A stretch of DNA of 37,162 nucleotides from Fidelibacterota bacterium (GTDB taxonomy: Bacteria > Fidelibacterota > Fidelibacteria > Fidelibacterales > Fidelibacteraceae), in assembly GCA_021734505.1 (NCBI GenBank), contig JAIPIT010000011.1, positions 1-37,162 of the forward strand, in the 5' to 3' direction. Below, piece after piece: positions 4,280 to 36,645 of the stretch (the first letter of the stretch is position 1; each line of letters starts with the position of its first letter). Under the pieces are notes generated by a model. It was not told the origin of the DNA. It saw nothing but the letters and a program-made list of their open reading frames with translations, and searched no databases. The translations under genes and the position numbers were made by a program.

Positions 4280-4307
4280 TTGCAATTAAGTAAATATTAT
4301 TTATAAA
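4280..4307 (+). promoter_or_regulatory. Candidate promoter of the TonB-receptor operon
   Basis: TTGCAA (4280-4285) and TATAAA (4302-4307) are separated by 16 bp in the 134-bp divergent intergenic region, about 32 bp before the ATG at 4340. The region is very AT-rich, so a chance match is possible. Confidence 0.35.
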
Positions 4308-4339
4308 TTAACAGCTTACATGAAGTAATTAAGGTAAAT

Positions 4340-18252: not shown

Positions 18253-18325
18253 GGCTCTGTAGCTCAGTCGGTAGAGCAGGGGACTGAAAATCCCTGTGTC
18301 GCTGGTTCGATTCCGGCCGGAGCCA
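18253..18325 (+). tRNA. tRNA-Phe(GAA)
   Basis: The acceptor stem GGCTCTG/CGGAGCC contains one G-U pair. The D arm contains AGCTCAGTCGGTAGAGC, the anticodon stem-loop is GGGGACTGAAAATCCCT with anticodon GAA, and the T arm has GGTTCGATTCC. The discriminator is A and no CCA is encoded. It is the only intact copy. Its 44-bp 3' part (18283-18326) is repeated downstream three times almost perfectly, which marks it as the integration target for the islands that follow. Confidence 0.97.
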
Positions 18326-18328
18326 CTC

Positions 18329-18359
18329 CAAAAATGCCTGTCAATCGACAGGCATTTTT
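18329..18359 (+). terminator. Terminator of tRNA-Phe
   Basis: AAAAATGCCTGTC and GACAGGCATTTTT form a perfect stem with an AATC loop directly after the tRNA. Confidence 0.88.
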
Positions 18360-18655
18360 GCAAGTACAAAGATTAAAGGTAAAAGATAAAAGTAGGGGCA
18401 CAGCATGCTGTGCCCATTTGATACATATGATATAAAAATATATATTAGAAAGGGAGTGGCAGATGTAGGGGCTACTCGGGAGTCGCCCGTTTTTCACTGT
18501 GCCCGGGGTTTAAAGGTACTTGGGGGTTGAGTATTTTTGGAATAAAAAAAAGTTACCTCATAATGTTCACTTTAGGCTTACATTAAATAATTGACAATAA
18601 TAAAATATAACTATAAAATATCAACAAATTGTATTTAGAATAACAGGAAGGCAAA
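18360..18655. other. Gene-free left junction of the first island: palindromes and repeat blocks
   Basis: It contains the 20-bp palindrome GGGCACAGCATGCTGTGCCC (18396-18415). A second, degenerate GTAGGGGC-type palindrome (18464-18490) lies in a block (18451-18495) that recurs at 34994-35036. A CCCGGGGTTTAAAGGTACTTGG block (18502-18535) recurs at 22012-22050. An AAGATTAAAGGTAAAAGATAAAAGTAG block (18370-18396) has a close relative at 35118-35148. A sigma70-like promoter (18591-18619) precedes the next gene. No gene is seen. Confidence 0.6.
18591..18619 (+). promoter_or_regulatory. Candidate sigma70-type promoter of the island propeller gene
   Basis: A perfect TTGACA (18591-18596) and TAAAAT (18614-18619) are spaced 17 bp apart and lie 36 bp before the ATG at 18656. 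Confidence 0.5.
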
Positions 18656-20107
18656 ATGGGAAACCACAAAAAACTTCAGCTTGTAATTAAGTTCGTTTAT
18701 TCATTCGTTTTTTTTATAGGTGCATATTCAACTGCCAATGCTCAGCAATTGCTTTGGGAACGTATTTTTGATAATGGAGAAGAAAATATTTCAAATAGTA
18801 TTTCGACAGATAGTGATGATAATATTATTATTGCGGGTTTTAGCGGTTATCCAAATGGTCTTATTGTAAAATACAATTCAGAAGGTGATACTTTGTGGAC
18901 TTGCCTAAATGATGTGCCAATATCAGCTGTGGCTTGCGATAGTGAAAAGAATATTATTGTGTTTGGCACCATGTATATAGAAGATTCAATGAGAGTTTGC
19001 ATTCTAAAATATGATCCTGAAGGGAATTTGCTTTGGCGACAACAAACAAAAGGTATTAATATTTTTAATGGGCATAGTAGTAGCACCGGTTGTCTGGCAA
19101 TAGATTCAAAGAATAATATTGTGATTGCCGGAATATATTTAAGTGATGAATATGACTATCTTACCCTTAAATTTAATTCTGATGGGGATTTGATTTGGTA
19201 TCGCACTTATCAAGATGCGGAAAACTACTGCGGTGCCCCAGACGGGGTCGCTATAGATAAATCAGATAATATTATAATAACCGGTAGATCTATATTCAAT
19301 AGAGTATGGAATTGGAGAACTCTTAAATATGATCAAAACGGTGATCTACTTTGGGCTGTAGAACAATATCGAACAAGTTGCAATGATTATGCTTATGGTG
19401 TTACAAGTGATCAAGAAGACAATATTATTGTAGTTGGATATGTTGATTCTTTAAATACCAAGTGGTGGCCTTTTATTATAAAATACACACCTGATGGAGA
19501 TACACTTTGGACAAAAAAATTTCAACTATATCCGGACAGCTATGACTTCTCATTTTATGATGTTGTAACGGATAGCTTAGATAATATTATTATCTGCGGA
19601 ATATATAGGCCAACTTCTTCTTGGGGAGAATATTTTGTTTGCAAATTAGATCAAAATGGCAATTTATCATGGACATTTAATGAAATGGTAGATACCAATC
19701 TAATTCATTACGTTCAAGATATGGCCATCGATGACAATGGAGATATATTTGTAACAGGGGCGGTTGAACTTAATACCTGTGATTGTTATACAATAAAAAT
19801 AAGGGATATCGTTACAGACATTGGTGACAATAAACAAATTCCTCAAAAATTTAGCTTATATCCGAATATCCCTAATCCCTTCAATGCAATGACAACATTA
19901 AAATATCAATTGATAGATAAAAATTTTGTTGATCTAACTATATACGATTTGCTTGGCAGAAAGATAATAACACTCGTTTCACAAATGCAATCAGCTGGGG
20001 TTTATACATTTAGATGGAATGCATTTGATATTCCCAGTGGTATATATATTGCGTGTTTAAAGGCCGGAAATCGCTTTTCTTCTCAAAAAATTGTTTTATT
20101 GAAATAA
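18656..20107 (+). CDS. Seven-bladed (SBBP-like) beta-propeller protein with T9SS sorting domain, 483 aa
   Basis: After a signal peptide (cleavage near NAQQ, residue 29) there are seven repeats of D-xx-(N/D)IxxxG followed by KYn-xGdtLW: NIIIAGFSG, NIIVFGTM, NIVIAGIY, NIIITGRS, NIIVVGYV, NIIICGIY and DIFVTGAV. That number fits one closed seven-bladed propeller. The C-terminal ~80 residues are a T9SS type A sorting domain (YPNIPNPFNAMTTLKY, IYDLLGRKI, IPSGIYIACL, QKIVLLK). It is surface-targeted with unknown ligand. It is the only cargo gene of the first att-flanked segment (18326-21783) apart from an IS3 element downstream. Confidence 0.85.
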   Translation: MGNHKKLQLVIKFVYSFVFFIGAYSTANAQQLLWERIFDNGEENISNSISTDSDDNIIIAGFSGYPNGLIVKYNSEGDTLWTCLNDVPISAVACDSEKNIIVFGTMYIEDSMRVCILKYDPEGNLLWRQQTKGINIFNGHSSSTGCLAIDSKNNIVIAGIYLSDEYDYLTLKFNSDGDLIWYRTYQDAENYCGAPDGVAIDKSDNIIITGRSIFNRVWNWRTLKYDQNGDLLWAVEQYRTSCNDYAYGVTSDQEDNIIVVGYVDSLNTKWWPFIIKYTPDGDTLWTKKFQLYPDSYDFSFYDVVTDSLDNIIICGIYRPTSSWGEYFVCKLDQNGNLSWTFNEMVDTNLIHYVQDMAIDDNGDIFVTGAVELNTCDCYTIKIRDIVTDIGDNKQIPQKFSLYPNIPNPFNAMTTLKYQLIDKNFVDLTIYDLLGRKIITLVSQMQSAGVYTFRWNAFDIPSGIYIACLKAGNRFSSQKIVLLK

Positions 20108-20209
20108 TATAAAATACTTGATTATAATGCTGGGATTTATCAACAAGGAGTAAGGTGTACGTCTTCTAAGTTAATTGGACAAGTTTCATGATAAGTTAAG
20201 AGATACATT

Positions 20210-21217
20210 TCAGTTTACCAAGTTTAATATCTGAGCATTGTTTTGAGGGCTCAGATTTTGTTTTCTACGCAATTTTATTGTTTCGATCTTGATCCTTTCG
20301 CGCCTGCTAAGCACTTCATGATGACGGCCGTAAAATACATCGGCCGGTGTAACGTTATTAATGGATTCATGGTACCGTTCATTGTTGTAATGATCCACAA
20401 ACTGTTTTAGTTCATTCTCCAGTTCCCAAGGGAAGTAATAAGTATCCAATTTCACGACATTTTTCATGGTCCGGTGATAGCGCTCTATCTTACCCTGAGT
20501 CATAGGATGGTATGGCGCACCACGGGTATGATCCATCTGCTTCTGGTCCAAATATTTTTTCAGATCTTTAGATAAATAAGACGGCCCGTTATCCGATAGC
20601 AACCTGGGTTTATGTTTGACCTTAACCTTATCTACACCGGTTTTCGCGATCGCCAGATCCAGAGTGTCTTTGACGTCTTCGGCCGTCATGCTACTTGTCA
20701 GCTTCCAACTGATGATATAGCGGGAGTAATCATCTAGCACTGAAGATAGATAATACCAGCCCCAGCCTACGATTCTAAAGTAGGTGAAGTCAGTCTGCCA
20801 CAGCTCGTTGACTCGCTTTGTAGGGTTCTTAAACTTATCTCCTGCGGACATTAATATGAAGTCCGGAGACGTGATCAGATCATAGGATTTAAGTATTCTG
20901 TATACTGAGGATTCAGAGATAAAGCACTCGTATTTATCTGTAATATGACAGGCCAGTTCACGTGGAGATTTATCCGGTTCTTCCAACGCGATATCAACCA
21001 CTTGTTCTTTTACGAAGTCTGGGATCCTGTTCCAGAAGCGCTTTGAGTTTGCAGGCCTTGTTGCCAGTCCGTCATAACCGTCTTCAAGATACCGCTGATA
21101 CCAGTTATAGAAGGTACTGCGATTGATCCCCAGTTCCATGAGTGTTCTTTTTGCCGATATTTCAGAGTTTTCTACCAGTTTGATTATCTCCATTTTTTCC
21201 GGTTGGGAGTATCTCAT
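20210..21217 (-). CDS. IS3-family transposase OrfB (DDE integrase), 335 aa
   Basis: An N-terminal helix-turn-helix (RTLMELGINRSTFYNWYQRY) is followed by the rve integrase core. The catalytic triad is D143 (WQTDFTYF), D209 (LLSDNGPSY) and E245 (QGKIERYHRTMK); the 35-residue spacing between the last two is the DD(35)E signature of IS3. The frame is open upstream of the ATG into orfA, as expected for OrfAB made by -1 frameshifting. It looks intact. Confidence 0.93.
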   Translation of the reverse strand: MRYSQPEKMEIIKLVENSEISAKRTLMELGINRSTFYNWYQRYLEDGYDGLATRPANSKRFWNRIPDFVKEQVVDIALEEPDKSPRELACHITDKYECFISESSVYRILKSYDLITSPDFILMSAGDKFKNPTKRVNELWQTDFTYFRIVGWGWYYLSSVLDDYSRYIISWKLTSSMTAEDVKDTLDLAIAKTGVDKVKVKHKPRLLSDNGPSYLSKDLKKYLDQKQMDHTRGAPYHPMTQGKIERYHRTMKNVVKLDTYYFPWELENELKQFVDHYNNERYHESINNVTPADVFYGRHHEVLSRRERIKIETIKLRRKQNLSPQNNAQILNLVN

Positions 21218-21231
21218 ATATTTATCGATCT

Positions 21232-21579
21232 TTATTCCGCGCCATTCAAACTTTTTTTTAATCCCCGGTTCTTCAACATCAGTTCTGCCACCAATTCTTT
21301 AAGCTGAGTATTCTCCTGGCGCATTTCATTTACTTCCACACTATTTGCTTCACGGATGGTATCACCTTGAAGGCGTTTCTTACCGGCTTCTAAAAAGTCT
21401 TTACTCCACTTATAATATTGATTGGGGTGAATGCTTTCACGGCGGCATACTGCTGCTATACTGTCTTCGCCTCTTAAACACTCTAAGACGATCCGTATTT
21501 TGTCTTCGGGAGAGAATTTTCTGCGGGTTGCTCCGTTAAGGGGGTGTGCATAATTTTGTGTAAACGGTCTTTCAATCAA
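21232..21579 (-). CDS. IS3-family transposase OrfA, 115 aa, with A8 frameshift site
   Basis: A transposase_8 helix-turn-helix (RRKFSPEDKIRIVLECLRGEDSIAAVCRRE) is followed by a leucine-zipper coiled coil (MRQENTQLKELVAELMLKN). It starts at TTG (21579) after GAGGAAC. A run of eight A (minus strand; 21252-21259) just before the stop is a typical -1 slippery site. Slippage would join OrfA to OrfB, whose frame is -1 and open across the gap. Confidence 0.88.
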   Translation of the reverse strand: MIERPFTQNYAHPLNGATRRKFSPEDKIRIVLECLRGEDSIAAVCRRESIHPNQYYKWSKDFLEAGKKRLQGDTIREANSVEVNEMRQENTQLKELVAELMLKNRGLKKSLNGAE

Positions 21580-21678
21580 AGTTCCTCATACGCTCTCTAA
21601 GCTTAGTATAGCAGACAGTGTTTTGCCTAAAACCCGCATCATTACTACACAAAACACTTAAAACGCTCCTTCTCAATT

Positions 21679-21783
21679 CACCGGTCACTTTTTGGTCACC
21701 CAAGCTCATAACTTATTGATTACCAGTATAGGACAGAGTACTGAAAATCCCTGTGTCGCTGGTTCGATTCCGGCCGGAGCCAC
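21679..21783 (+). repeat. att-like junction 1: 11-bp direct repeats, 39-nt spacer, 44-bp tRNA-Phe 3' fragment
   Basis: GGTCACTTTTTGGTCACC (two GGTCAC 11 bp apart, 21683-21700) is followed after 39 nt by a 44-bp sequence (21740-21783) identical to the 3' part of tRNA-Phe, from the anticodon loop through the acceptor stem. The tRNA 5' half and promoter are absent, so it is not a gene. I read it as the right attachment site of the first island. Confidence 0.85.
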
Positions 21784-21792
21784 ACTTAACTG

Positions 21793-21816
21793 CCCTGTAA
21801 ACAAACATTTACAGGG
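21793..21816 (+). terminator. Terminator-like hairpin after tRNA-Phe fragment 1
   Basis: CCCTGTAAA and TTTACAGGG pair around a 6-nt loop and are followed by TTTGTTGTTTT. It sits 10 bp behind the fragment, in the same relative position as the real tRNA-Phe terminator. Confidence 0.6.
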
Positions 21817-22242
21817 TTTGTTGTTTTGGCACTGTATTTTGTGAAATATAACGGGTTAATAATGTAATGTTTTTAGTTCTGATGGGGTGGTCATTTTATG
21901 GTCAGTTTTTGGGCAACGCAAAATGATGAAACTCGCAAGAGAAGGCACCTTATATAGCGAAAATCAGCCCTCTCTCCTCGATGCTAGTACCAGGGTATTT
22001 TTCCACTGTACCCCGGGTTTAAAGGTACCCATGATACTTGGGAGTTGAGAATTATTTTATCTATAGCAAGAAGCCACCTGGGAGGTGGCTCTAGTGACTG
22101 TCTGAATAATGGGAAAGGGCATAATGTTTGTGATTATTTAAAATTAGGAACAATATTTAAATATTTACAGTATGTGTTTTGTTATTATGCATTTAATTAG
22201 TATTATACAAAGTATTATAGATAATGTATTCAAGGAGGTTTC
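21817..22242. other. Gene-free left part of the second island
   Basis: Three direct repeats with 11-bp period (GGTCATTTTAT, GGTCAGTTTTT, GGGCAACGC) start at 21889, 21900 and 21911, about 105 bp after the tRNA fragment. A CCCCGGGTTTAAAGGTACC block (22012-22056) matches the one at 18502. An AGCCACCT/AGGTGGCT hairpin lies at 22072-22090. An AT-rich upstream region with SD AAGGAGG precedes the next gene. No gene is seen. Confidence 0.6.
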
Positions 22243-23247
22243 ATGAAAATAAAATTAACAATTTCTCCAATACTACATATATTTGTCACAATATTTTTAG
22301 TTTCTTGCTTTAATAGTACAGTTGACGAATATCCTGATCATTATTTGGATGATTGGCAGCTATATTCTTTGGAGAATAAAGATATCGGAGTTTTTAGTCT
22401 GCACCCAATAAATACAGATATTGTTTATGCAGGAGGAACAGAATTATTGATAACAATTAATGATGGACAAACTTGGGATACGCTTTTTACGGAAAATGAG
22501 AGTAGGGATATTAAGATTTCCACTGATAATATAATATATTATGCAACATATGGATTATTTAAAAGCACTGATGGTGGAGTTATCTGGAATGCCATTAATC
22601 CCACTTTTCCAGAAGAAGCTATTTTTACTTGTTTTGATATTGATCCGGATAATAACGATATAATTTATGTCGGTTGTGGTGGCCCAACGGGTGGAGCATT
22701 ATATAAAAGCATTAATGGTGGGATAGATTGGTCTCAGATAAATACTGAAGAAATGTTTGGCAGTATTAAGAAACTTGTCGTTAATCCAAATAATACAGAT
22801 ATAGTATATGCAAGTGTAGCCGGTGAGGGACTTTTATTTAAGACAAAAAATAAGGGACGAACTTGGATCCAGATGGATATTGGAATTGAGGATCTAGCTT
22901 ATGACTTTAATGATATATTTTGCGATCCCTTAGATAATTCCACTACATATATTGTCAGTAGATCTATATTTAAAACTGATAATAACGGTAGAAGTTGGGA
23001 AGATATTAGTGAAGGAATATTAGAAAATTCCACTATAAATAATATTACCGGGACAAATAATGGTCGATTATTCGTGAGTACCAGAACAAGTTTATACGAA
23101 TTTATTCATGAGTCTGAATCATGGACAAAAATTAGTAATGATTCTTTAAATCTAATTATTAATGATATTAAGTGTTCTGAAAATACTAACAAGTTATTCA
23201 TAGGCACTGATAAAGGAATATATACAATCAATTTATTGCACGAATAA
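22243..23247 (+). CDS. BNR/sortilin-like repeat lipoprotein, 334 aa
   Basis: A lipoprotein signal peptide ends in LVSC (Cys 22). At least five BNR-type blades follow (TINDGQTWDT, STDGGVIWNA, SINGGIDWSQ, TKNKGRTWIQ, TDNNGRSWED), interleaved with DP-N-DIVYAG strands, as in sortilin/Ycf48-type propellers. It lacks a T9SS tail, so lipid anchoring replaces the sorting domain. It has strong SD AAGGAGG and very AT-rich codon use. It lies 12 bp before the subtilisin/beta-helix gene and is probably co-transcribed with it. Confidence 0.78.
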   Translation: MKIKLTISPILHIFVTIFLVSCFNSTVDEYPDHYLDDWQLYSLENKDIGVFSLHPINTDIVYAGGTELLITINDGQTWDTLFTENESRDIKISTDNIIYYATYGLFKSTDGGVIWNAINPTFPEEAIFTCFDIDPDNNDIIYVGCGGPTGGALYKSINGGIDWSQINTEEMFGSIKKLVVNPNNTDIVYASVAGEGLLFKTKNKGRTWIQMDIGIEDLAYDFNDIFCDPLDNSTTYIVSRSIFKTDNNGRSWEDISEGILENSTINNITGTNNGRLFVSTRTSLYEFIHESESWTKISNDSLNLIINDIKCSENTNKLFIGTDKGIYTINLLHE

Positions 23248-23259
23248 GGAGTAAAGGAA

Positions 23260-26200
23260 GTGATTCGCAGAACATACAGTTTAGTAATAATAATATTAAT
23301 TCTATTGAATATTCAATTAAATGCCTCTGGAATAAATGAGAAAAAACTGAATATTAAAACCGCATTTTGGAAAGGAAAGTATGTTAAATATATACCACAC
23401 CAAATTGCAGTTAAAATAAAACCTGATGCAAGTAAAAAGGAAATTAAAGAGTTATTTAGAGAAAAAAATATAATAGAAATTGTTCCTGTTGATAAATGGG
23501 GCTGGTTCTTGGCTGGAATAAACAAAGAAATTGATGAAATTTCTTTTATTAATGAATTACTAAGTAATCCAATAGTTATTTGTGCCGAATTAAATAATTT
23601 TGTTACAGCAGGATTTGAACCTGATGATCCATATTTTGATGGAACTAGTCCAGCAACTTATGCACATCAGTGGGCATTAAAAAATACTGGTCAAACCCCT
23701 CCTTCTGGTACTATTGGTGCTGATATAGATATAATAAATGCTTGGGATATAACTAAAGGGGATACAAGTGTAATAATTGCCGTTCTTGATTCAGGTATCC
23801 CTATGGAAAACGGCGTTTTATCACATCCAGATTTAAATAATTCTCAAAAAATATTATTAGGTGATGATTTTACCCCACTCATATATAGTAATGTAGAAGA
23901 TGAAACTGTAACTGATCATTGGGGACATGGAACACATGTTACGGGTATTATTGCCGCAGAAGCAAATAATGATACTGGTATAGCTGGTATTGCACATGGT
24001 TGTAAAATAATAGTTATGCAAGTATTTGAAGATGAAGGGGGTTTTGGAAGTTCTTATCTTTTTAAACTTGGTGTAGATTCTGTCGTTAATTATAAAATTA
24101 ATCATCCAAATACAAATTGTATTATAAATTTCAGTGGTAACTCCGGTAATCAAACCTATGTTACCGACGCACTTGATAATGCTGAAGAATATGAAGTCCT
24201 AATTGTTTCAATTGCTGGGAATGGCTTTTCAGATCCTGTAGAATATCCAGCTAAATTTTCAGAAGATTACTCAAATATAATTGCTGTTTCTTCAGTAGAT
24301 GCCGATGGTGTGTTCTCAGCTTTTTCTAACAAAGGAAGTCAGATCTGTGTAGCTGCACCTGGGGGATATGGGGGGGTATATGTAAATAACATTATGTATT
24401 ATAATACAACATCTAATTATGGGAAAAATATTTTTTCAACAACACCCAATTATAATTTTAATATGCAAAGTTCAACTGATGTAACGACATCCTATGGTTA
24501 TTTAGATGGAACTTCTATGGCCGCTCCAGTCGTTTCAGCAATAGCAGGGCTATTATTATCAATTAACTCGGATTTAACACCTTCACAAGTTAGAAATATT
24601 ATCGAGACAACTGCTGATGATGATGATGCGGGAGACGGTTTTGATAATTACTATGGACATGGAAAAATTAATGCCTATAAAGCTTTGAAATATACTCTAG
24701 AAAACTACGGTGGTACTTTAACTCAAAATATAACTGTTTCATCTGGAAGAACATTAGATATTAAAACGGGCACCACAGTAAATCTTAATTCATATACATT
24801 TACTTCTTCAGGTGGAACAATAATAGTTGAAAATGGTGCTACCATTAATCCATATATATGCCTTAAAAATGGTTCAGCAATTAAAGGATTATATTCAACG
24901 CTATCATCAGCATTGAGTGCAGCTAGTAACGGAGAAACAATTGAATTTGGTGCAACAACCACTCTTACTGGTGATGTTACTATTCCCTCAGGAGTGACAC
25001 TTACTATTAATAGTGATGCTTCAATAACAATGCGTGGAAATAAAATCACTACAACTTCTGGCACGATCAATGTTAATTACGATGCAGATATAAATCCATT
25101 TATAGTACACAGAGATCATTCTGACGATATTATTGGTTTATATCCAAATATAGATGATGCGTTTTCAGCCGTTTCAGCTGCTGCTGACCAAACAGTCGAA
25201 ATCAATAGTGCTGTAAGTGTTTCGAGTGATGATATAATAGTTCCTTTTGAAACTACTTTGGAAATAATGGACAAAGCAAATCTTTCAATTGATTATCCAT
25301 ATACAATTACAACGAATGGAGGTAGTATTGTATTAAGTGGAAGCCCTACCATTAATCCTGATATCAGAGCATTAAACTCAGGAACAATACAGGGTCTATA
25401 TCACTCAATATCAGATGCAATGTCCCAAGGAACTACTGTACAGGCTCGTGGTGGAACTCATACATTTGCTGATCATTATACCATAGCATCCGGGAAATTA
25501 CTTGGACTTTATGATGAAGCAGAAATAAAATTCCCCTCAGGTAAATATCTTTATGTAAATGGTGGACTGTATTGTGATGAAGCGACATTCACAAGCACGT
25601 CAGGGACATGGGGAGGCATTAAATACCAAAGTGGTTTTGGAACATTAAATGAGGCAACGATTACTAATGCCACTTATGGAGTCTACTGCAATTCCGCATC
25701 ACCAACCATTGAGTATAGTGATATTTCCAATTGCACTTATGGTGTTTATAACAGTGGCGGCTCGCCGGACATTTATAACAGCAGTATCAATGGCGGTACA
25801 TATGGCGTATATAATTATAATGGAAGTTATTATAATACAATTGCCGGTAATATGATATCCTCGACATATGGTATCTATAGCTACGCTTCATTATCACTTA
25901 TAAGGAATAATGAAATAACAAGCAGTACGATTGGTTTATACTGTGACAATAATTCATCCCCCGAATTATTGAGTGGCGGTAATTATTTTCATGGAAATTT
26001 TGTAATATTCGGTGTTTTTGCTGATAACAATTCAAGTCCCAGCATGGGAGTAGACTATTGCAGTGTCGGTGGGAATCACAGTTTTGTATATAATAACCTT
26101 GATATTGCCCTCGTTAGCGCCGGAACAAACTGTCACATATGGGCCCAAAACAACTGGTGGGGAACATCATCGCCCAATGCAGGTATGTTCGGCGGTAATG

Positions 26201-27896: not shown

Positions 27897-27952
27897 GGTA
27901 ATCTGGCCAAAACACTTGTAAAATAGCACTTTGCCACACCCTGAAAAACTTC

Positions 27953-28131: not shown

Positions 28132-28154
28132 ACTCCCCTTTCTTGGGGAGTTTT
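28132..28154 (+). terminator. Terminator-like hairpin after the tRNA-Lys-like fragment
   Basis: ACTCCCC and GGGGAGT pair around TTTCTT, followed by TTTTG. Confidence 0.7.
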
Positions 28155-28259
28155 GTTATTGTGTGGAAAAGTGCAAAGAAGCTACAAATAATCATTCTTG
28201 ATAAATAAAAAGATTCAACATATATTAACTATCATTAATAATATTTGATAGGTGCTGCG

Positions 28260-28925
28260 ATGAAAAAATATTTTGTCATACTTTTTTGCATATTGATGTT
28301 CTCTTGTAGTGATCTCTTAGATATTATGAATCAACAGCACACAGCCCCCGAATTAATTACTAAACCTGTTACAGAAATATCTCTTTTTGGAGCAAAGGTT
28401 TCTACCCAAGTGACTGATACTGATGCAGAACTGATTGATGAGGCCGGTTTTTATCTGGGTTTTGAATCTGATACCAGTAGCTCTAATGATCTTAAGATAC
28501 TTTATGAAAAATCTGATAATGAAAGATATATCCCTTGGGATTTTTCATGTCAAGTAAGTGATTTAGATTCAAATACGACATATAGAGTAAAAGCATATGC
28601 TTTTTCAATTATGACTGGTTGTGGATATGGGAACTATGTTGCTTTTACTACTATGAGCAATGTCATCAAAGGGAAATGGTCATTTTACGATACTTATAGC
28701 CGAGGATATGAAGTATTTACTTTTAATAAAGACCTAAGCTTTATACTGGAAGAATTAGACAGCAATCTGCAAATTACGTTTACATCACCGGGAACATATG
28801 ATTTAAGCCCTGATAGCATATTCTTAAATCATGATAGAAGAACTGGTGAAAGATCACATTCGTATACACTAACTGATACCATTCTAAACATCGACAATAT
28901 TCCCTATATCAAACAAAACGAATAA
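28260..28925 (+). CDS. Fn3-like lipoprotein, 221 aa
   Basis: ATG 28260 gives a clean lipoprotein signal (MKKYFVILFCILMFSC); the upstream TTG at 28245 is not needed. Residues about 35-135 have the pattern of Bacteroidota fibronectin type III-like lipoproteins (EAGFYLGFES, SDLDSNTTYRVKAYAFS, GYGNYVAFTTM). A C-terminal lipocalin-like beta region follows (GKWSFYDTYSRGYEVFTFNKDLSF). It is the only gene between the tRNA-Lys-like fragment and the second tRNA-Phe fragment. Function is unknown. Confidence 0.78.
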   Translation: MKKYFVILFCILMFSCSDLLDIMNQQHTAPELITKPVTEISLFGAKVSTQVTDTDAELIDEAGFYLGFESDTSSSNDLKILYEKSDNERYIPWDFSCQVSDLDSNTTYRVKAYAFSIMTGCGYGNYVAFTTMSNVIKGKWSFYDTYSRGYEVFTFNKDLSFILEELDSNLQITFTSPGTYDLSPDSIFLNHDRRTGERSHSYTLTDTILNIDNIPYIKQNE

Positions 28926-29039
28926 CTGCAAATATTGTACGTACAAGTAATGAAGACTGTGATAATCAAATAATGTCATACATTTTATAAATATTGTCCT
29001 AAATCCCTGTAAAATCACACTATACTACACCTAAGAATT

Positions 29040-29144
29040 CACCGGTCACTTTTTGGTCACCTTGCCTTGTAACTTATTGAATATCAGCAGTGAACAGAGT
29101 ACTGAAAATCCCTGTGTCGCTGGTTCGATTCCGGCCGGAGCCAC
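29040..29144 (+). repeat. att-like junction 2: 11-bp direct repeats, 39-nt spacer, 44-bp tRNA-Phe 3' fragment
   Basis: GGTCACTTTTTGGTCACC (29044-29061), a 39-nt spacer closely similar to junctions 1 and 3, then the 44-bp tRNA-Phe 3' part (29101-29144), identical to 18283-18326. There is no tRNA 5' half. Confidence 0.87.
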
Positions 29145-29151
29145 CACCTAA

Positions 29152-29185
29152 AGCCCTGTAATAACATAGACTTACAGGGCTTTTT
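29152..29185 (+). terminator. Terminator after tRNA-Phe fragment 2
   Basis: AGCCCTGTAA and TTACAGGGCT pair around a 10-nt loop, followed by TTTTATTT. The stem is related to that after fragment 1 (CCCTGTAA). Confidence 0.75.
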
Positions 29186-29230
29186 ATTTCTACATCATTT
29201 ATATAGTAATATAACGAGAAACGGCGTTTT

Positions 29231-29263
29231 TGGACATTCATGGGCGCCATTTGGGCGCCGCAA
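29231..29263. repeat. Three 11-bp-period repeats on the left side of the third island
   Basis: TGGACATTCAT, GGGCGCCATTT and GGGCGCCGCAA start at 29231, 29242 and 29253. They lie about 90-110 bp after the tRNA fragment, like the triple at 21889. Confidence 0.55.
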
Positions 29264-29279
29264 TTATTATAGGGGAGAT

Positions 29280-30578
29280 TTATTTGATTAAAACCATTTT
29301 CCTTGAGTATGTACTATTGCCATTCTCAAGTCGACTAATATAGATCCCCGAGCTATAATTAGAAGCATTCCATTTTACTTCATATTGCCCGGCCTGATAA
29401 AAATCATCTATAAGAGTTTCTACAAGTTGTCCTGAAATATCATAAATACTGAGTTTTACCTTTGATTCAGAAGGTATTGTGTAATTGATCGTGGTTATAG
29501 GGTTGAAGGGATTGGGATAATTTTGCATCAAAGCCACTTCGTGAGGGACCGGATCTTCTTTTATACCGACTCCGTCGCGCTGCCATTTGAGAAAGGGATA
29601 ACCGTCATTATATTCAGGATCGATCACCCATGTGTCAATGAAGTTCCAGCTGGAATCTGTATAAGTAGACTGCATCTTCATTTCTGTCGTTGTTTTGCCT
29701 GTTCCGCCAGCGCTGGCGGCCAAATCGGTTGTATCCATGTCCCAAAAGCTGTTTTGAATGACAGACCCCTGGTTCGTACCGATCAAACCACCAGCAATTC
29801 CTTCGTCTTCGGACAAAGAAATATCAGTTATACCCGCGCGGTAACAGTTTTTAACGATCGTGTTGATACTCTCACCAATCAGTCCCCCATAATTATAGGA
29901 AGATCCCGAATAAAATGACTGAACCATATGGATACCCAGGGAATAACAATTACTGATATGGGAATCTTTACTGTAAGCAACGATCCCGCCTGATGTAATG
30001 CTTGATACAAAAGCATTGATCCCGGTTAAACCCATAAGATCAGTATATGAATCCCGTATCGTGGTTGAGCACGCCATACTGACAATACCACCGGCAATTC
30101 TTCCGGAAATATAGCCTTTTACTGAGCAGTTGATGATCGTTGACATAGAATCTTTTCCCACTAAACCACCAACGTAATGTCTGCCTATTAGATTTTGAAA
30201 ACGTATATGAATATTTTTTATAGTAGCATTATGTGTGTATCCGAATAAACCACTATAAAGAAGATTGGCAGATGATATGATCATGATAAAATCCAATGAA
30301 TATCCCTGTCCATCATAAGAACCGTAAAAGCAACTGTCGGAGCTTACCCCGATAGGTAAATAACCTAGAGAGCTACTGCTTGAAGCATCAATGTCATCTG
30401 TTTGAATGTAATGTTTTCCCCAATTCGCCGAATCTGTTGAAATCCAATGGAGATTTTCTAGGGTAGCAATCTGATAGGGGTCGCTTTCCGCGCCGCTGCC
30501 CAAGGCTGGGGGCGTTGCCGTCTGGGCAAACAAAACAGAAATTGATAAAAATATAAAGACTTTATATAATGTTTTCAT
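29280..30578 (-). CDS. GLUG-motif secreted protein with T9SS sorting domain, 432 aa
   Basis: The signal peptide ends near LFAQT, residue 20. The body is a beta-solenoid of GLUG type, starting with the typical PYQIATLENLHWIS...HYIQTDDIDAS entry, then LFGYTHNATIKNIHI, GGLVGKDSMSTIINCS, GGIVAYSKDSHISNCYS, GGLIGESINTIVKNCY and GGLIGTNQGSVIQNSFWD. The conserved close TEMKMQSTY...WNFIDTWVID...GYPFLKW is present. The T9SS tail is YPNPFNPITTINY...YSSGIYISRL...RKMVLIK. GLUG proteins are adhesin-like surface proteins. It is divergent from the following secreted-protein operon. Confidence 0.88.
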   Translation of the reverse strand: MKTLYKVFIFLSISVLFAQTATPPALGSGAESDPYQIATLENLHWISTDSANWGKHYIQTDDIDASSSSSLGYLPIGVSSDSCFYGSYDGQGYSLDFIMIISSANLLYSGLFGYTHNATIKNIHIRFQNLIGRHYVGGLVGKDSMSTIINCSVKGYISGRIAGGIVSMACSTTIRDSYTDLMGLTGINAFVSSITSGGIVAYSKDSHISNCYSLGIHMVQSFYSGSSYNYGGLIGESINTIVKNCYRAGITDISLSEDEGIAGGLIGTNQGSVIQNSFWDMDTTDLAASAGGTGKTTTEMKMQSTYTDSSWNFIDTWVIDPEYNDGYPFLKWQRDGVGIKEDPVPHEVALMQNYPNPFNPITTINYTIPSESKVKLSIYDISGQLVETLIDDFYQAGQYEVKWNASNYSSGIYISRLENGNSTYSRKMVLIK

Positions 30579-30710
30579 TGTTATTTACTCCCAAAAACTT
30601 ATTTAGCTACAAATTATAAGATTAAAGAATTAATATCAAAGGAAAAATTATTTGATATAAAAAATTAATATAGTAAATTAATAGAAGAATATACAAAATA
30701 TGGGGTAAAT

Positions 30711-31433
30711 ATGAATCGTAAACTTAAAGGTATTTTTTTGTGTAGTTTGTTTTTAATATTATCTGCGAAGAATTCTAATGACAATATAGGGTCGGAGATA
30801 AATGGAGGGAAAGAACATATAACATATATTGAGATGTTAGAAGTTTTGCAAATACAAAATGAGGAAATACAAAAAATGCCAACAGAACAACTTTTAAACA
30901 CCTGTATAGATTGCCCTTTAATTTTTAAAATTTGGTTGAACTCGAGCGTACAAGAAGGAGTAGAAATTTTAATTAATGAATATAATGGTTTGCAAGAATT
31001 ACTAATACGTAAAGATGCCGGGACGGAGCTGTTAAAAATCTATATGAAAATGGATCCACATGCTTTTTATCATGATTGGAATGATATACAAAGAGGCAAG
31101 TATACATTTAAATTTGCTTTCGTTGAAATGCTTCTAGCTCAAGAAACTATAATTTCCTTATTAACTAAAGAAGAACGTTTATCATTACTTCAAGAATTAT
31201 TGAATAAACAAAAGCATATGTCTGAATACCCTATATATGATATAAAAAACCAAGAATCAAATATTTTCTTAATTGGGAAAATAATTCAAAAAGACTATAG
31301 TGAATATATGTTTTCTTTATCGTCTGAACAAAATGATAAGTTACAGTATTTTTTAAGAAGAGGTTCACATTCAATAATAGGTACTAAAGAAATGATATTG
31401 TACATGGTCAATAAAATTATTAATGAATTATAA
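30711..31433 (+). CDS. Small secreted helical protein upstream of the cysteine-hydrolase-like gene, 240 aa
   Basis: A signal peptide is followed by an all-helical sequence with EMLEVLQIQNEEIQKMPTEQ, TCIDCPLIFKIWL and YTFKFAFVEMLLAQETIISL. I do not recognise a named family with certainty, though similar exported proteins starting M-TE-LL--C--YPL are, from memory, common in Bacteroidota. It ends 9 bp before the cysteine-hydrolase-like/beta-helix gene and shares its low GC, so the two probably travel as a pair. A protective inhibitor or chaperone of that enzyme is one possible role; nothing in the sequence proves it. The equivalent place before the S8 gene holds a BNR lipoprotein instead. Confidence 0.65.
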   Translation: MNRKLKGIFLCSLFLILSAKNSNDNIGSEINGGKEHITYIEMLEVLQIQNEEIQKMPTEQLLNTCIDCPLIFKIWLNSSVQEGVEILINEYNGLQELLIRKDAGTELLKIYMKMDPHAFYHDWNDIQRGKYTFKFAFVEMLLAQETIISLLTKEERLSLLQELLNKQKHMSEYPIYDIKNQESNIFLIGKIIQKDYSEYMFSLSSEQNDKLQYFLRRGSHSIIGTKEMILYMVNKIINEL

Positions 31434-31442
31434 GAAGCATTT

Positions 31443-34010
31443 ATGTTAAAAAAGAAAAGAATAATACAGATTATTTTAATTATTTTGTTATATCAAAATT
31501 TGGGAGCACAATATATCCCTATAGATTTATTTACACCTCGTGGAACATTAATTGGTAATACTTATTATTGCAATACAGATTATAATTCAGTCACAATAGC
31601 AATTCTAAATGAAATGTATCAAAATGACTATCCTCTTGCAGAAATAATTGGAAATTCATCTAGAAAATATAATTGTCATGGATATGCTTGGCATATGATT
31701 GAAGGTGGGGCTATAGATAACCCTATTTGGATAGGTTTAACTTCTGCAGGAAATACATATAAGTATTGGGAAGACGAAAGCTATAGCGTAGTAGATGTTC
31801 AATATGCTACTATTGTTGATTATTCGATTGATCACTCTGCAATAACTACCGATACAATAGAAATACTTATTTCTAAATGGGGCGATGGTCCGTTAATGAG
31901 ACATGGTACAACTGGTTATGGTACAATTTCTAAATATTTACGAAAAAACCCTGCAACACCATCAGATTTTATTACTGTTTTAGAAGCTATTAACGATGCT
32001 GTTCCTAATCAAATTGTACATGTTGATAGCGGTGTGCCTGTACTTTCATGTAATATATCAATATCAGAAAACATTACATTAAAAATTCATTCAGGGGCAA
32101 TTTTAGAACTTGATACCTGTTCAATAATTTTTCAGGAAGGTTCATTATTCATTGCTACAAATGCAGAAATAAGCCCCTATTTCTGTTTAAAAGAAGGAAT
32201 GAATGTAAAAGGACTGTATCCCTCCTTTTTGACTGCATTAAATGTAGCTACATCTGGTCAAACAATTGAAATTGGTGATAATGTTTCACTGACAACAAGT
32301 ACAACCATCCCTTCGGGCATTACCCTTAAATTTGCTACCGGTAAATCATTAAATACTTCAGTATCATTAAACGCGACGAATGTTACGTTTACAAGTCTGT
32401 CGGGAACCTGGGGTGGTATTAAATATAATAGTGGCAGTTCAGGAACATTGAATAATTGTACTATAAGCAATTCAACTTACGGTGTCTATTGTAATTCCTC
32501 ATCACCTACCATTGAAAACAGTAATATTTCAAATTGTACCTATGGAGTGTACAATAATAACGGCTCGTCGGATATTTATGATAATAATATCGTGAGCGGC
32601 ACCTATGGCATATATAATTATAATGGAAGCGGCTATAATACAATCTCCGGAAATACCATATCTTCATCATACGGTATCTATAACTATGCTTCATCATCGA
32701 TCATCCGGGATAATGAAATCACCAGCAGTACGGTTGGTTTATATTGTGATAATTACTCTTCACCCGAGCTTTTGACAGGAGGGAATTATTTTCATGGCAA
32801 TTATGTGATCTTCGGTGTTTATGCCGATAATAATTCAAATCCGAGCATGGGAGTTGCATGGTGCATGCTAGACGGTGAACACAGTTTCGTATACAATGGT
32901 TTTGACATTGCCCTGGTCAATGCCGGAACGAACTGTTCCATATGGGCCGAGAACAACTGGTGGGGAACCTCGTCGCCATACGCGGGGATGTTCAGCGGAT
33001 CGGTTGATTGGAATCCGTATTTACAGAACATGCCGACATACAGCATGCAGCCGAATCCGGAAAATGATATTTATGACCAGACATTTAACAGGGTTGCAGT
33101 TCAGACTGATGACCAGACAGATAACGATCTGATCAACTATTATGATGAAGCCTGGTCCTTAGATCAAAAGATCAAGTTCCTGCGGTATCTGGTTCATTAT
33201 AACGAAGCGACGGGTGTACCCGCCTTATGTAAAGAAATCATTGAAACCTATCCGTATTCCCCGGAAGCATTCACGGCGTTGGATATCATTTATCAGGTTG
33301 TAATAAATGAAAACGCCGCAAAGGATATCGATAAAGAATCCCTCAAGATCTATTTGAAAACGTTTGAAGAGAAAAAGGGAAATAAAATGCTCAACGGTTC
33401 GGCTTTGCTGATGCTGGCCGGACTGGAAAAGAAAGAAGGACTTTCAAGGATCGATGCCGTTTATACCGCGAATAAGGATAATTATCTGGGGGAATATGCA
33501 TTATATCAGAAGTTCATGTATTATGTTCATGATGAGGAAGATATGGAGACAGCCAAATCGGTACTTGATTTGATGGATGAGGTTTATCCTGAGAGCAGGG
33601 TGAGTTATGAAGCCCATCTTCTTATCGGTGATGAGGTGATATCCCCCGAAGAATTCTACAGCCGTCTTCAAAAGAAAACCGAAGCAGAACAAATGGAACT
33701 TGTATCCACCGATATCGATGAGATCATCCCCGCGGAGTACGCGCTTGATCCGGCAGTACCAAACCCCTTTAATCCGAGTACGGCTCTTGAATTTGATCTG
33801 CCGGTCCAATCGAAAGTTCAATGTGGTATATATGATGTGAGAGGTAACCTGGTCAAGGAATACAGCTATGAGCAGAATGCCGGGACCTACTCGATCGTGT
33901 GGGATGGCTCAAATGTATCAAGTGGTATTTACTTGATCCGGTTTGTTGCTGAGGCGTCTGATGGAACTGAAACGTTTGTTGATTATCAGAGGGTGACGTT
34001 ACTTAAATGA
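31443..34010 (+). CDS. Papain/CHAP-like hydrolase domain fused to beta-helix, helical and T9SS sorting domains, 855 aa
   Basis: After a signal peptide (to about 22, LGAQ), residues about 35-170 carry YNCHGYAWH (Cys78), VDYSIDHSAI (His131) and ISKWGDGPLMRHG. This is the Cys-His layout of NlpC/P60- or CHAP-like amidases and peptidases, assigned by pattern only. A NAEISPYFCLKEG...GLYP segment, a right-handed beta-helix (about 315-525; repeated YGVY/YGIY, NNWWG), a helical domain and a T9SS tail (VPNPFNPSTALEF, VSSGIYLIRF, RVTLLK) follow. Residues 315-855 are closely paralogous to 776-1314 of the S8 protein, whose N-terminal enzyme is unrelated. GC rises from very low in the 5' part (7 of 60 bases in 31441-31500) to 27 of 60 in 33181-33240. 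The stop overlaps the next start (ATGA). Confidence 0.82.
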   Translation: MLKKKRIIQIILIILLYQNLGAQYIPIDLFTPRGTLIGNTYYCNTDYNSVTIAILNEMYQNDYPLAEIIGNSSRKYNCHGYAWHMIEGGAIDNPIWIGLTSAGNTYKYWEDESYSVVDVQYATIVDYSIDHSAITTDTIEILISKWGDGPLMRHGTTGYGTISKYLRKNPATPSDFITVLEAINDAVPNQIVHVDSGVPVLSCNISISENITLKIHSGAILELDTCSIIFQEGSLFIATNAEISPYFCLKEGMNVKGLYPSFLTALNVATSGQTIEIGDNVSLTTSTTIPSGITLKFATGKSLNTSVSLNATNVTFTSLSGTWGGIKYNSGSSGTLNNCTISNSTYGVYCNSSSPTIENSNISNCTYGVYNNNGSSDIYDNNIVSGTYGIYNYNGSGYNTISGNTISSSYGIYNYASSSIIRDNEITSSTVGLYCDNYSSPELLTGGNYFHGNYVIFGVYADNNSNPSMGVAWCMLDGEHSFVYNGFDIALVNAGTNCSIWAENNWWGTSSPYAGMFSGSVDWNPYLQNMPTYSMQPNPENDIYDQTFNRVAVQTDDQTDNDLINYYDEAWSLDQKIKFLRYLVHYNEATGVPALCKEIIETYPYSPEAFTALDIIYQVVINENAAKDIDKESLKIYLKTFEEKKGNKMLNGSALLMLAGLEKKEGLSRIDAVYTANKDNYLGEYALYQKFMYYVHDEEDMETAKSVLDLMDEVYPESRVSYEAHLLIGDEVISPEEFYSRLQKKTEAEQMELVSTDIDEIIPAEYALDPAVPNPFNPSTALEFDLPVQSKVQCGIYDVRGNLVKEYSYEQNAGTYSIVWDGSNVSSGIYLIRFVAEASDGTETFVDYQRVTLLK

Positions 34011-34699
34011 TAGACTTATTAAATGATAATAAATGTAAGGGACGGTCTAGACCGTCTCCTGCATTTTTAGGTCGGTTTATTTTATTGTTCCTGTCTATAA
34101 CAGGCTTTCTTCTTGCCGAAGATCCGGATACGACACTGCAAAAGTTAAAAGAGCAGTCAGTAAATATTGAATATGCCTCTAAAACATTTGATATTGATCC
34201 GATGAAGCTTAAAACTATTACTTACGTAGAACGTACAAATAACTACGACTGGCGTGATGAATACTTTGATGATTATCTGGCTAAGAAGGGGCAAAATAGT
34301 TCTATTGGTTTCTGCCAAGTGAAGATGAAAACGGCTTATTGGATTGAATGTCAATTAGCTGATAGTACATCTGAGTTTTATTCCGGGAAGATGTACGAGG
34401 ATATCCTACAGGTTAGCCAGTCTCCACAAGCGATCATTGACAAGCTTGAAGATGATAGGACAAATCTTCTTTATGCATCAGCTTACATGAGGATCATTCA
34501 AAGCTATTGGCAGAGCAGGGGATATTCGATTGATGATCGCGTAGATATTATTGCCACGATATTTTCTTATGGAATATTCAGCAGAGCAACTGGTGAGCCT
34601 TTAAAACCTAATGCCGACCCAAAGCCGAATTGGTTTGGAGAGCAGGCATTAGATATCTATAAGATGTTCACTTTAAAGCATCCAATAAACCACGAATAA
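34007..34699 (+). CDS. Secreted lytic-transglycosylase-like protein, 230 aa (copy 2)
   Basis: Paralogue of 27201-27896, with the same motifs: Glu75 in ITYVERTNN, SSIGFCQVKMKTA, DDRTNLLYASAYMR and ATIFSYGIF. The block from DEYFDDYLAKK through AYWIEC is identical in both. The signal peptide (hydrophobic core about 24-36) is again preceded by CKGRSRPSPA, encoded by a diverged 30-bp palindrome. ATGA overlap with the upstream gene keeps the pair translationally coupled. It probably acts on peptidoglycan, perhaps to open the wall for the partner or to attack a neighbour; the target is not visible. Confidence 0.72.
   Translation: MIDLLNDNKCKGRSRPSPAFLGRFILLFLSITGFLLAEDPDTTLQKLKEQSVNIEYASKTFDIDPMKLKTITYVERTNNYDWRDEYFDDYLAKKGQNSSIGFCQVKMKTAYWIECQLADSTSEFYSGKMYEDILQVSQSPQAIIDKLEDDRTNLLYASAYMRIIQSYWQSRGYSIDDRVDIIATIFSYGIFSRATGEPLKPNADPKPNWFGEQALDIYKMFTLKHPINHE
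34034..34063. repeat. 30-bp palindrome inside the second signal-peptide coding region
   Basis: The arms TGTAAGGGACGGTCT and AGACCGTCTCCTGCA have a perfect 16-bp core GACGGTCTAGACCGTC. It lies at the same codons as the palindrome at 27231, but the stem sequence differs with pairing kept. Confidence 0.82.
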
Positions 34700-34763
34700 G
34701 CATTTTCTTTTACATACGAGTTCTAAATACTTTTAAAACAGTACATTAGCAGCACAAAATAAT

Positions 34764-34868
34764 CACCGGTCAGTTTTTGGTCACCTTGCCTTGTAACTTA
34801 TTGATTATCAGCAGTGAACAGAGTACTGAAAATCCCTGTGTCGCTGGTTCAATTCCGGCCGGAGCCAC
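34764..34868 (+). repeat. att-like junction 3: 11-bp direct repeats, 39-nt spacer, 44-bp tRNA-Phe 3' fragment
   Basis: GGTCAGTTTTTGGTCACC (34768-34785), a 39-nt spacer nearly identical to that of junction 2, then the tRNA-Phe fragment 34825-34868 with a single change (GGTTCAATTCC in the T loop). Confidence 0.87.
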
Positions 34869-34876
34869 TCCGACGA

Positions 34877-34900
34877 CCCCATCAATACGATGGGGTTTTT
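34877..34900 (+). terminator. Terminator after tRNA-Phe fragment 3
   Basis: CCCCATC and GATGGGG pair around AATAC and run into five T. Confidence 0.8.
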
Positions 34901-35194
34901 GTTTTTTGAGGAATAAATTATTGATCTTTCTCATTTCAATAACCGAGGGGGAGAAGCAGGGACCCGCCTTCGTCAAGACTACGGCGGACAGGGGAGGAGT
35001 GGCGGATGGAGGGGCAACTCATTAGTCGCTCGTTGGATGTGCGCTGATTCGGTAAATTATTTGGTGCTAAGTGATATGTTCAAGGGCTTTTTTGATGCAA
35101 GGCAAAAATACAAAGGCAAAAGATTAAAGTAAAAAAGATAAAAGTAGACAGTTGATATTGCCAGTTGTATATTTTATTCGTTAATAAAAAGTAT

Positions 35195-36352
35195 TTAAAA
35201 ACTTGTAGAAATGAGTTCTATTTTACGTTTCACTGTTGTTGTACCATTACTGGAATTATATTCTGCTTTTACGATACCGATGTTTAACCCCATGTCCCAG
35301 TAAAATTGTTCCCAGTCTGCTAAGTAATATTTGACAATATGTACAGTATCATCATTATTATCTAAATATCTAGGAATTTCATATGCTTTGATAATAATTA
35401 AACCCGCAACTTCCTCATAAGTAAATCCCGAAGGAGTATCAGATGTTGTTAACAAAGAATCATATTCAATATATTCACCATCGTAAGATAGTTGTATAGT
35501 TCTCGAATATTCTACGTCTGTCGTATCTCTTTGACCTGAATTGTAAGGATCAAAGGAAATCATAATACCTTTAAAATCAATCTTGAGATCTAATGTATAA
35601 TGATATGAATCAATCTCAAGAATTTCCCATATTTCACTTCCAATCCATTTCCAAGAATTTCCTTCACCAATATAATTAAATGACTCATAAGTCCACGAAT
35701 TACCTGTTTCTATTGGGAAATAATTATTCATAGGTTCAAGAACCTGTAATGTATAATTATCAGTACTGCTTCCATACTCATTAGAGACTGTACACGTGAT
35801 CGTCACAAAGCAGTTACTCTCCGAAATATATACTGCTGTTGAGTCATCTCCTTCTATAGTACCATTTGTACACGTCCATTGATATTCCAGAGATCCATGT
35901 TGGGGATCTCGAGCTGAGCAAACAACATGCAAGGTATCACCAATATAGATATTTTCGGTTTCAATTACATATACTGAATCGATTATCGGAGCTTCTGCTG
36001 TTTCTAGCAAGATATTAATATTTCGTAATGCAGTTTTATTTGAAGGATCACTTACAAGACAATTAACATTCAGATTTGATTCACTGCTAACTATAGTTGC
36101 AGTATCATTTAGAGACATAACAATAGTTCCCCCTGTACAACTCCATTGATATGTCAGTGAATCTTGATCAGGGTCATATGCAGAGCAAACAATATGCAAG
36201 GTATCACCATTATATAGATCACCTTTTTCAATGACATACAATGAATCAATAATCGGAGCTTCACCTAATGGGAAGAGATTGCAATGAATAAAAAACACAG
36301 GTAGAATAACCAGAATAATTAAAAAATGAATTGTTAGCTTCTGTCTCAACAT
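35195..36352 (-). CDS. Lipoprotein with two PKD/Ig-like repeats, 385 aa
   Basis: The lipobox is FIHC (Cys 24). Two tandem modules of ~95 residues start EAPIIDSLYVIEKGDLYNGD and EAPIIDSVYVIETENIYIGD and carry LHIVCSAYDPDQDSLTYQWSCTGGTI and LHVVCSARDPQHGSLEYQWTCTNGTI, typical of PKD/cadherin-like beta-sandwiches. The C-terminal ~190 residues (YFPIETGNSWTYESFN...) resemble the beta-rich domain found in many FCB lipoproteins that begin FPL-vGN-W-Y. SD GAGGT precedes the ATG. It is the only gene of the last att-flanked segment and is probably surface-exposed or periplasmic. Confidence 0.8.
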   Translation of the reverse strand: MLRQKLTIHFLIILVILPVFFIHCNLFPLGEAPIIDSLYVIEKGDLYNGDTLHIVCSAYDPDQDSLTYQWSCTGGTIVMSLNDTATIVSSESNLNVNCLVSDPSNKTALRNINILLETAEAPIIDSVYVIETENIYIGDTLHVVCSARDPQHGSLEYQWTCTNGTIEGDDSTAVYISESNCFVTITCTVSNEYGSSTDNYTLQVLEPMNNYFPIETGNSWTYESFNYIGEGNSWKWIGSEIWEILEIDSYHYTLDLKIDFKGIMISFDPYNSGQRDTTDVEYSRTIQLSYDGEYIEYDSLLTTSDTPSGFTYEEVAGLIIIKAYEIPRYLDNNDDTVHIVKYYLADWEQFYWDMGLNIGIVKAEYNSSNGTTTVKRKIELISTSF

Positions 36353-36460
36353 AAATTACCTCTTTAATGATTGAAAATAATAAAAGCACATAAAAAAACC
36401 AACTGATAAAAGAAATAAGTTTATATGTAATAAGATTATCAGTAATAATGTCAATAAAAA

Positions 36461-36645
36461 CACCGGTCAGTATTTGGTCCCCACTACGTCCGTCAGCTAA
36501 CGGACTTCGTAGGGCAGGCACCTTTTTGCCTTTAACCTTTATGTATACTGAGTGTTTTAGGTACTGAAAATCCCTGTAGAGTTTATCCGGCGTAGTCCCG
36601 ATATGCATCGGGACGTAGTCGGACTGGTTCCCCCGGAGCAACGGT
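36461..36645 (+). repeat. att-like junction 4, degenerate and interrupted by two palindromes
   Basis: CACCGGTCAGTATTTGG is interrupted by a ~40-bp insert containing ACGTCCGT...ACGGACTTCGT; GGCACC then resumes, and ACTGAAAATCCCTGT (36563-36577) follows 40 nt later. The tRNA sequence is then broken by a second insert with TCCCGAT/ATCGGGA (36588-36612), before GGTTC and CCCCGGAGC end it. It is the decayed distal end of the array. Confidence 0.65.

Follow-up and report, generated by a model that had tools for sequence, protein, structure and literature searches.

A tandem array of integrase-less cassettes carrying genes for exported proteins at a tRNA-Phe gene of a Fidelibacterota bacterium, probably accreted by an integrase acting in trans

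The stretch of DNA analysed here (the window) is a contig of 37,162 bp (C14) from the metagenome-assembled genome (MAG) of a Fidelibacterota bacterium, in which a tRNA-Phe gene is followed by four cassettes bounded by copies of its own 3' part. This locus is probably a tandem array of non-autonomous integrative cassettes, accreted by a tyrosine integrase that acted in trans. The assembly comprises 1.98 Mb in 116 contigs and is 78% complete, so that about 22% of the genome lies outside it, and statements on the absence of integrases refer to the assembled part. tRNA genes were called with ARAGORN, and copies of the repeated core were located by an ungapped scan of the window.

The tRNA-Phe gene sits downstream of trmD and rplS, and its 3' part forms a 44-bp core (18283-18326) with the anticodon loop CTGAAAA. 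A first-pass annotation of the window had placed further copies of the core at 21740, 29101 and 34825, with 0, 0 and 1 changes respectively, and a broken copy at 36563; the scan confirmed the first three, and beyond positions 18283, 21740, 29101 and 34825 it returned no further window site at least 70% identical to the core. An exact repeat of 44 bp is far beyond chance. The broken copy retains only ACTGAAAATCCCTGT, the anticodon arm, followed by an interrupted T-arm. No second tRNA-Phe 5' half is present among the core copies of the window: the tRNA 3' part is repeated at the distal end of a unit and an intact tRNA is restored at the target. Each core copy is then followed by its own, different terminator-like hairpin, as would be expected if each unit supplied its own sequence in restoring the tRNA 3' end. 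At the core, GGGA-CTGAAAA-TCCC corresponds to the anticodon stem and loop and forms two inverted core-type sites around seven bases, with putative cleavage points; the loop itself is presumed to be the 7-bp overlap for strand exchange. Anticodon arms fit the cores of lambda-type integrases (PMC8371274), and junctions at non-tRNA sites diverge after this same block. The target, core copies, cassettes and ends are as follows (R1 denotes a sequence profile of the right end).

18253-18326 (+): intact tRNA-Phe (GAA), integration target; sole tRNA called in the window (ARAGORN)
18327-21739 (+): cassette 1, with one propeller protein of the type IX secretion system (T9SS) and an IS3 element (IS, insertion sequence); left end partly replaced (core copies, Pfam)
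21677-21752 (+): right end of cassette 1 (R1 69.7 bits), with direct repeat GGTCACTTTTTGGTCACC at 21683-21700, 57 bp upstream of the core
21740-21783 (+): core copy 2, 44/44 (ungapped scan)
21784-29100 (+): cassette 2, composite, with left end, cargo, nested Lys-type end and a further lipoprotein (core copies)
27953-28119 (+): second-family right end with a tRNA-Lys(CTT)-type 3' segment, core 28091-28119 (sequence comparison)
29038-29113 (+): right end of cassette 2 (R1 74.7 bits), direct repeat 29044-29061
29101-29144 (+): core copy 3, 44/44 (ungapped scan)
29145-34824 (+): cassette 3, arm-like repeats 29232-29259 (core copies)
34760-34837 (+): right end of cassette 3 (R1 76.4 bits), direct repeat 34768-34785
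34825-34868 (+): core copy 4, 43/44 (ungapped scan)
34869-36562 (+): cassette 4 (core copies)
36465-36640 (+): right end in degenerate form (GGTCAGTATTTGGTC at 36465) and, at 36563, the broken core; short palindromic inserts in both

Every intact core copy is preceded by a conserved right end, in which a direct repeat GGTCAC-N5-GGTCACC (GGTCAC-TTTTT-GGTCACC in the window) begins exactly 57 bp before the A of ACTGAAAATCC, that is, before the core. The period and fixed distance of this repeat suggest that it provides the arm sites of an integrase. When 18 right ends from several families of the phylum were aligned, 17 did so without an internal gap and 20 columns were invariant; right ends of the window type were also recovered in relatives by BLAST. 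The strict pattern of arm repeat, spacing and core was searched in the genomes of 84,980 species (GTDB) and found at eight loci, six of them in genomes titled Neomarinimicrobiota and two in one genome (G037) placed in the same phylum as the window. The R1 profile matched 32 of 245 genomes of the phylum (E<=1e-4), often several times per contig and up to nine times per genome, and the weaker matches may include chance ones. Downstream of the core three settings occur: arrays in which the tRNA 3' half continues, solo copies at non-tRNA positions, and degraded cores.

The ends are not confined to one tRNA. In two congeners (G003 and G008) the same arm region is fused to GGACTCATAATCC, the anticodon arm of tRNA-Met, and in G008 one cassette lies between tRNA-Met (4254-4328) and a right end at ~8190-8260, with three open reading frames (ORFs), all exported-looking and none of them an integrase. 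A second family of ends, of the tRNA-Lys(CTT) type, has three copies in the window genome (27953-28119, contig C98 and contig C65); the copy in the window carries an arm-like repeat, GGGCACTTTTTGGGCACC, at 27953-27970, and cassette 2 is judged composite because this end is nested within it. The conserved right ends, the nested end and the composite cassette go beyond the first-pass annotation, whose description of an array grown at one tRNA-Phe gene holds here and is too narrow for the family, which is also found between rsfS and grpE in the window genome and, in relatives, at tRNA-Met and many non-tRNA loci. A resemblance between 18327-18395 and the stretch that follows tRNA-Met in G008 might suggest a left end in common, but is judged to reflect a common terminator with a low-complexity repeat of the genus. 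In another genome of the phylum (G060), a second core, with its arm repeats, lies ~207 bp beyond tRNA-Phe, and the interval holds no gene (L060 7003-7260), apparently an empty cassette; in a genome of another family, a 36-kb contig (G228:C11; L121 1-20000, L122) combines four right-end matches with many genes for exported proteins and represents a larger array.

Outside tRNA genes, a case comes from the window genome itself, where a right end next to rsfS terminates contig C48 and an intact left end next to grpE terminates contig C59. Because rsfS directly precedes grpE in four congeners (G001, G003, G005 and G007), with a short intergenic region and the site unoccupied, the two contig ends are most likely the two sides of a single insertion outside tRNA genes. 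The C59 left end shares 93% identity over 243 bp with that of cassette 2, which has arm-like repeats at 21889-21915. Once joined, the rsfS and grpE flanks match the anticodon arm of tRNA-Phe over 18 bp, where chance would give 6e-5 such matches in the genome. This match was not accepted as proof of a native secondary site, since the right flank, TGTAGAGTCTA, is also present at 36563 and in G002, and the site may instead be an attachment site (att) copy that has been altered.

The window holds no integrase and no integrase remnant, the four cassettes included. The claim of the first-pass annotation that no integrase remains is accurate for the window, with about a fifth of the genome (the ~22% given above) not in the assembly. 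Across all 116 contigs only two PF00589 proteins were detected, which are read from their neighbour genes as XerC and XerD. Elements using the same core, a lack of which the first-pass annotation would have counted in favour of ordinary duplication, exist in relatives: a tyrosine integrase gene adjoins tRNA-Phe in G001, G043, G052 and G037, with its 3' end facing the tRNA, and in the congener G001 it occupies the same trmD-rplS-tRNA-Phe locus as the window array. These four integrases and a copy at another site in G026 are 27-45% identical and conserve the catalytic R-K-H-R-H-Y. A left end of ~90 bp is common to the integrase element of G001, a cassette of G007 and cassette 3 of the window; in G240 an integrase element comes directly after a right end and core, and integrase fragments come after right ends in G052 and G046. 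The integrase family (E<=1e-45) occurs in 36 genomes of the phylum, 14 of which also have right ends (p=1.4e-5, not corrected for phylogeny). All comparisons are between MAGs or assemblies from different species, and at this species level the relatives differ in the sequence that follows tRNA-Phe, which lends support to the site-specific accretion proposed in the first-pass annotation. In G037 an integrase ORF (L075 8631-9869) reads through its own attachment site, its C-terminus overlapping tRNA-Phe.

The cargo of the cassettes is strongly biased. Export was called by a home-made heuristic (signal peptide or lipoprotein) applied by an equal rule to cargo and background, and within the window all ten cargo ORFs other than those of the IS scored positive, four of them with a T9SS sorting domain. 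The first-pass statement that the cassettes carry almost only exported proteins thus stands for the window, and elsewhere it reduces to an enrichment, not an exclusive content: in complete cassettes outside the window 13 of 18 ORFs are exported (hand count) against 36 of 140 (26%) in the background (p~2e-4), and the ORF nearest to the right end is exported in 16 of 25 cases against the same 36/140 of host regions (p~3e-4). T9SS tails often lie directly upstream of the right end. Among the cargo domains are subtilase, GH127, MGH1-like hydrolase, laminin-G, PKD and propellers; some cassettes depart from this pattern and carry two-component, radical-SAM or transporter genes. The cargo of the window is listed below.

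18656-20107 (+): exported DUF5122/SBBP beta-propeller protein, T9SS sorting domain (Pfam, export heuristic)
20210-21579 (-): IS3-type transposase ORFs, passenger (Pfam rve, HTH); contig C59 ends in the same IS flank
22243-23247 (+): lipoprotein, Vps10/Ycf48-like propeller (Pfam, export heuristic)
23260-27204 (+): exported S8 subtilase-like protein, 1314 aa, T9SS sorting domain (Pfam, export heuristic)
27201-27896 (+): exported 231-aa protein, 71% identical to the product of 34007-34699 (export heuristic)
28245-28925 (+): lipoprotein, 226 aa (export heuristic)
29280-30578 (-): exported GLUG-motif protein, T9SS sorting domain (Pfam, export heuristic)
30711-31433 (+): exported protein, 240 aa (export heuristic)
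31443-34010 (+): exported NosD-like protein, 855 aa, T9SS sorting domain (Pfam)
34007-34699 (+): exported 230-aa paralogue of the product of 27201-27896 (export heuristic)
35195-36352 (-): exported PKD-domain protein (Pfam, export heuristic)

In the mechanism proposed, a unit opens with a left end comprising the tRNA 3' half, a terminator of its own and arm-like repeats; one to four genes of cargo come next, and the unit closes with a right end made up of the GGTCAC-N5-GGTCACC arm repeat, 57 bp and the core. The arm repeats and the inverted repeat of the anticodon stem would be bound by a tyrosine integrase whose gene lies elsewhere, and this enzyme would exchange strands across the 7-bp anticodon loop, such that a circular cassette integrates either at tRNA-Phe or at an existing core copy, the tRNA being restored each time and the units stacking. 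With the overlap changed to CTCATAA or CTCTTAA, the target would become tRNA-Met or tRNA-Lys, and cassettes would also land at non-tRNA sites. Given its bias to secreted, T9SS and lipoproteins, the array may work as a changeable surface or secretome locus. Cassettes mobilised in trans in this way may still be moving today, and some vehicle would presumably carry them between cells. A viral vehicle was considered and set aside: no IMG/VR contig has the strict right-end pattern, and viral integrases were only distant.

Several observations weigh against such accretion by an integrase in trans. Firstly, at E<=1e-25 the integrase family is absent from the window genome and from eight of nine congeners (present in G001 only), and 18 of the 32 genomes with right ends have no strong integrase match; many arrays may for this reason be inert. 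Secondly, several solo right flanks resemble decayed tRNA halves rather than clean secondary sites, and the rsfS-grpE ends lie on two contigs, so that the insert is not continuous in the assembly. Finally, the signal-peptide calls behind the cargo bias are heuristic.

The main rival holds that the cassettes are decayed cis-mobilisable elements (CIMEs), once autonomous units whose integrase was deleted, forming a passive graveyard that moves only beside a new element or never. This is unlikely, if the most serious of the alternatives. It follows a described route to tandem att-flanked elements (PMC5704250), and is favoured by the lack of an integrase in most congeners, by integrase fragments adjoining some right ends (L059, L132 and L134) and by the one broken core copy. 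In common with the CIMEs and tandem accretion of elements related to ICESt1 (PMC5704250), the window has integrase-less att-flanked units in tandem at one target and integrase-bearing elements of the same specificity in relatives; attL and attR are kept, and genes for integration and transfer are absent (transfer genes judged from ORF and Pfam lists only). Unlike CIMEs, the window cassettes show no trace of a parent integrative and conjugative or integrative and mobilisable element. On an origin by deletion the evidence points both ways: no integrase remnant occurs in the four window cassettes or in those of G008, G003 and G228, but cassette 3 has its left end in common with an integrase element. 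Both terminal ends, moreover, are retained across the phylum, which speaks against decay. The cargo differs in kind: in the few integrase-bearing elements sampled, the genes are of Mu Gam-like, primase or exonuclease type or unknowns, and no ORF was called exported in the two scored for export (L129 and L155), whereas integrase-less cassettes carry mostly exported proteins, a contrast that deletion alone would not produce.

Ordinary tandem duplication or homologous recombination between repeats, with no site-specific integration, is very improbable as an account of the array. Cassettes 2 and 3 share 2.27 kb at 74% DNA identity, which implies some duplication or homologous exchange; the shared stretch nevertheless ends short of the unit boundaries, and cassettes 1, 3 and 4 are alike in little beyond their ends. 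In other families the ends, terminators and 57-bp spacing accompany cargo that is unrelated, and G003 has two left ends that are alike for ~110 bp and then lead into different cargo. Least credible of all are modules driven by the host dimer-resolution recombinases XerC and XerD (integrative mobile elements exploiting Xer, IMEX, or pdif-like), for although the sole PF00589 proteins of the assembly look like these two, the junctions, judged from boundary sequence, are tRNA 3' halves with arm-type repeats and look unlike 28-bp dif-like sites, and relatives have dedicated integrases at the same tRNA.

Accretion in trans would place the array among systems whose architecture (tandem accretion, CIMEs, additive islands) is already known. 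Additive flexible genomic islands with tRNA 3' direct repeats are described in Alteromonas (PMC5217437), Methylophilaceae (PMC10872708) and Ca. Actinomarinales (PMC7771536); they too combine one locus and tRNA direct repeats with content that varies between relatives (here, between species), but the window family has defined ends (arm repeat, 57-bp spacing, anticodon-loop core, own terminator) that occur phylum-wide and also away from tRNAs, with cargo biased to exported proteins. The ssrA islands of Dehalococcoides, in tandem and lacking an integration module in 15 of 31 cases (PMC3146451), likewise lie between 3'-end repeats of one RNA gene and have one dominant cargo type, whilst their target is tmRNA, their recombinase the serine-type DsiB and their cargo reductive dehalogenases, against tRNA-Phe and a tyrosine type here. 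Integron arrays share small cassettes that would depend on an integrase encoded outside the cassette; units of the window, in contrast, have tRNA cores and arm repeats rather than attC, carry several genes on both strands with their own terminators, and belong to a family in which integrase-bearing elements are themselves array members. Judged from these boundaries and the multi-gene cargo on both strands, the array does not consist of attC-bounded promoterless cassettes served by IntI. Tycheposons differ in requiring their own tyrosine recombinase, which the window cassettes lack. A literature search on mobile elements of Marinimicrobia returned nothing relevant and no earlier description of this cassette family. 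As far as found, what is new is that integrase-less cassettes with several tRNA specificities occur phylum-wide, have defined ends at even spacing, are also found away from tRNAs and show a marked bias to exported cargo.

A wider reading can be offered only tentatively: Neomarinimicrobiota might possess a dedicated two-part system of helper elements, with an anticodon-loop-specific integrase, and integrase-less cassettes that retain nothing but the helper's ends and carry secreted-protein genes. Cassettes would then be ferried into tRNA arrays and chromosomal sites, the tRNA target being altered via the 7-bp overlap, and the whole would exchange secretome genes in the manner of an integron, by way of tRNA cores. 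Either way, an almost uncultured phylum gains a well-delimited, presumably mobile unit with a searchable end signature and a candidate integrase, and metagenomes can be used to ask whether cassettes lacking an integrase are mobilised in trans and whether small mobile units are a preferred location of secretome genes, as proposed for Escherichia, in which secreted proteins are enriched in mobile regions (PMC2773837). Tools that need an integrase per island, such as Islander (PMC4383910), would miss arrays of this kind by design.

Within the array, residues 186-855 of the NosD-like protein (31443-34010) are 64% identical to the C-terminal 675 aa of the product of 23260-27204; the two differ in their N-terminal parts, which in the latter is the subtilase. 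A shared C-terminus of ~675 aa behind differing N-termini suggests domain swapping within cassettes, and the cassettes appear mosaic, since cassettes 2 and 3 share the C-terminus of the large protein and the next ORF but differ upstream. The 231-aa product of that next ORF in cassette 2 has no Pfam or NCBIfam match and PDB matches only at E~0.9, one of which bears the name of a type VI secretion system effector that was not taken as a function; its AlphaFold model has a predicted local distance difference test score of 34 and is unusable.

Short palindromic repeats are found inside cassette ends and detached tRNA T-arms in two distant genera (window 36483-36625; L020 ~3660-3720; L061 1609-1680 and 3084-3212; L121 1469 and 4342). 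Their effect may be to inactivate att copies, or they may represent a small mobile repeat of palindromic form. A similar palindrome stands, in frame, in the first codons of both the 231-aa and the 230-aa paralogous ORFs (27231-27262 and 34032-34063). The array has a G+C content of 36%, the host part one of 41%. On the far side of the last cassette, immediately beyond the broken core, an IS110-like transposase ORF (36647-37162; family assigned by eye) is cut by the contig end, beyond which the array may continue.

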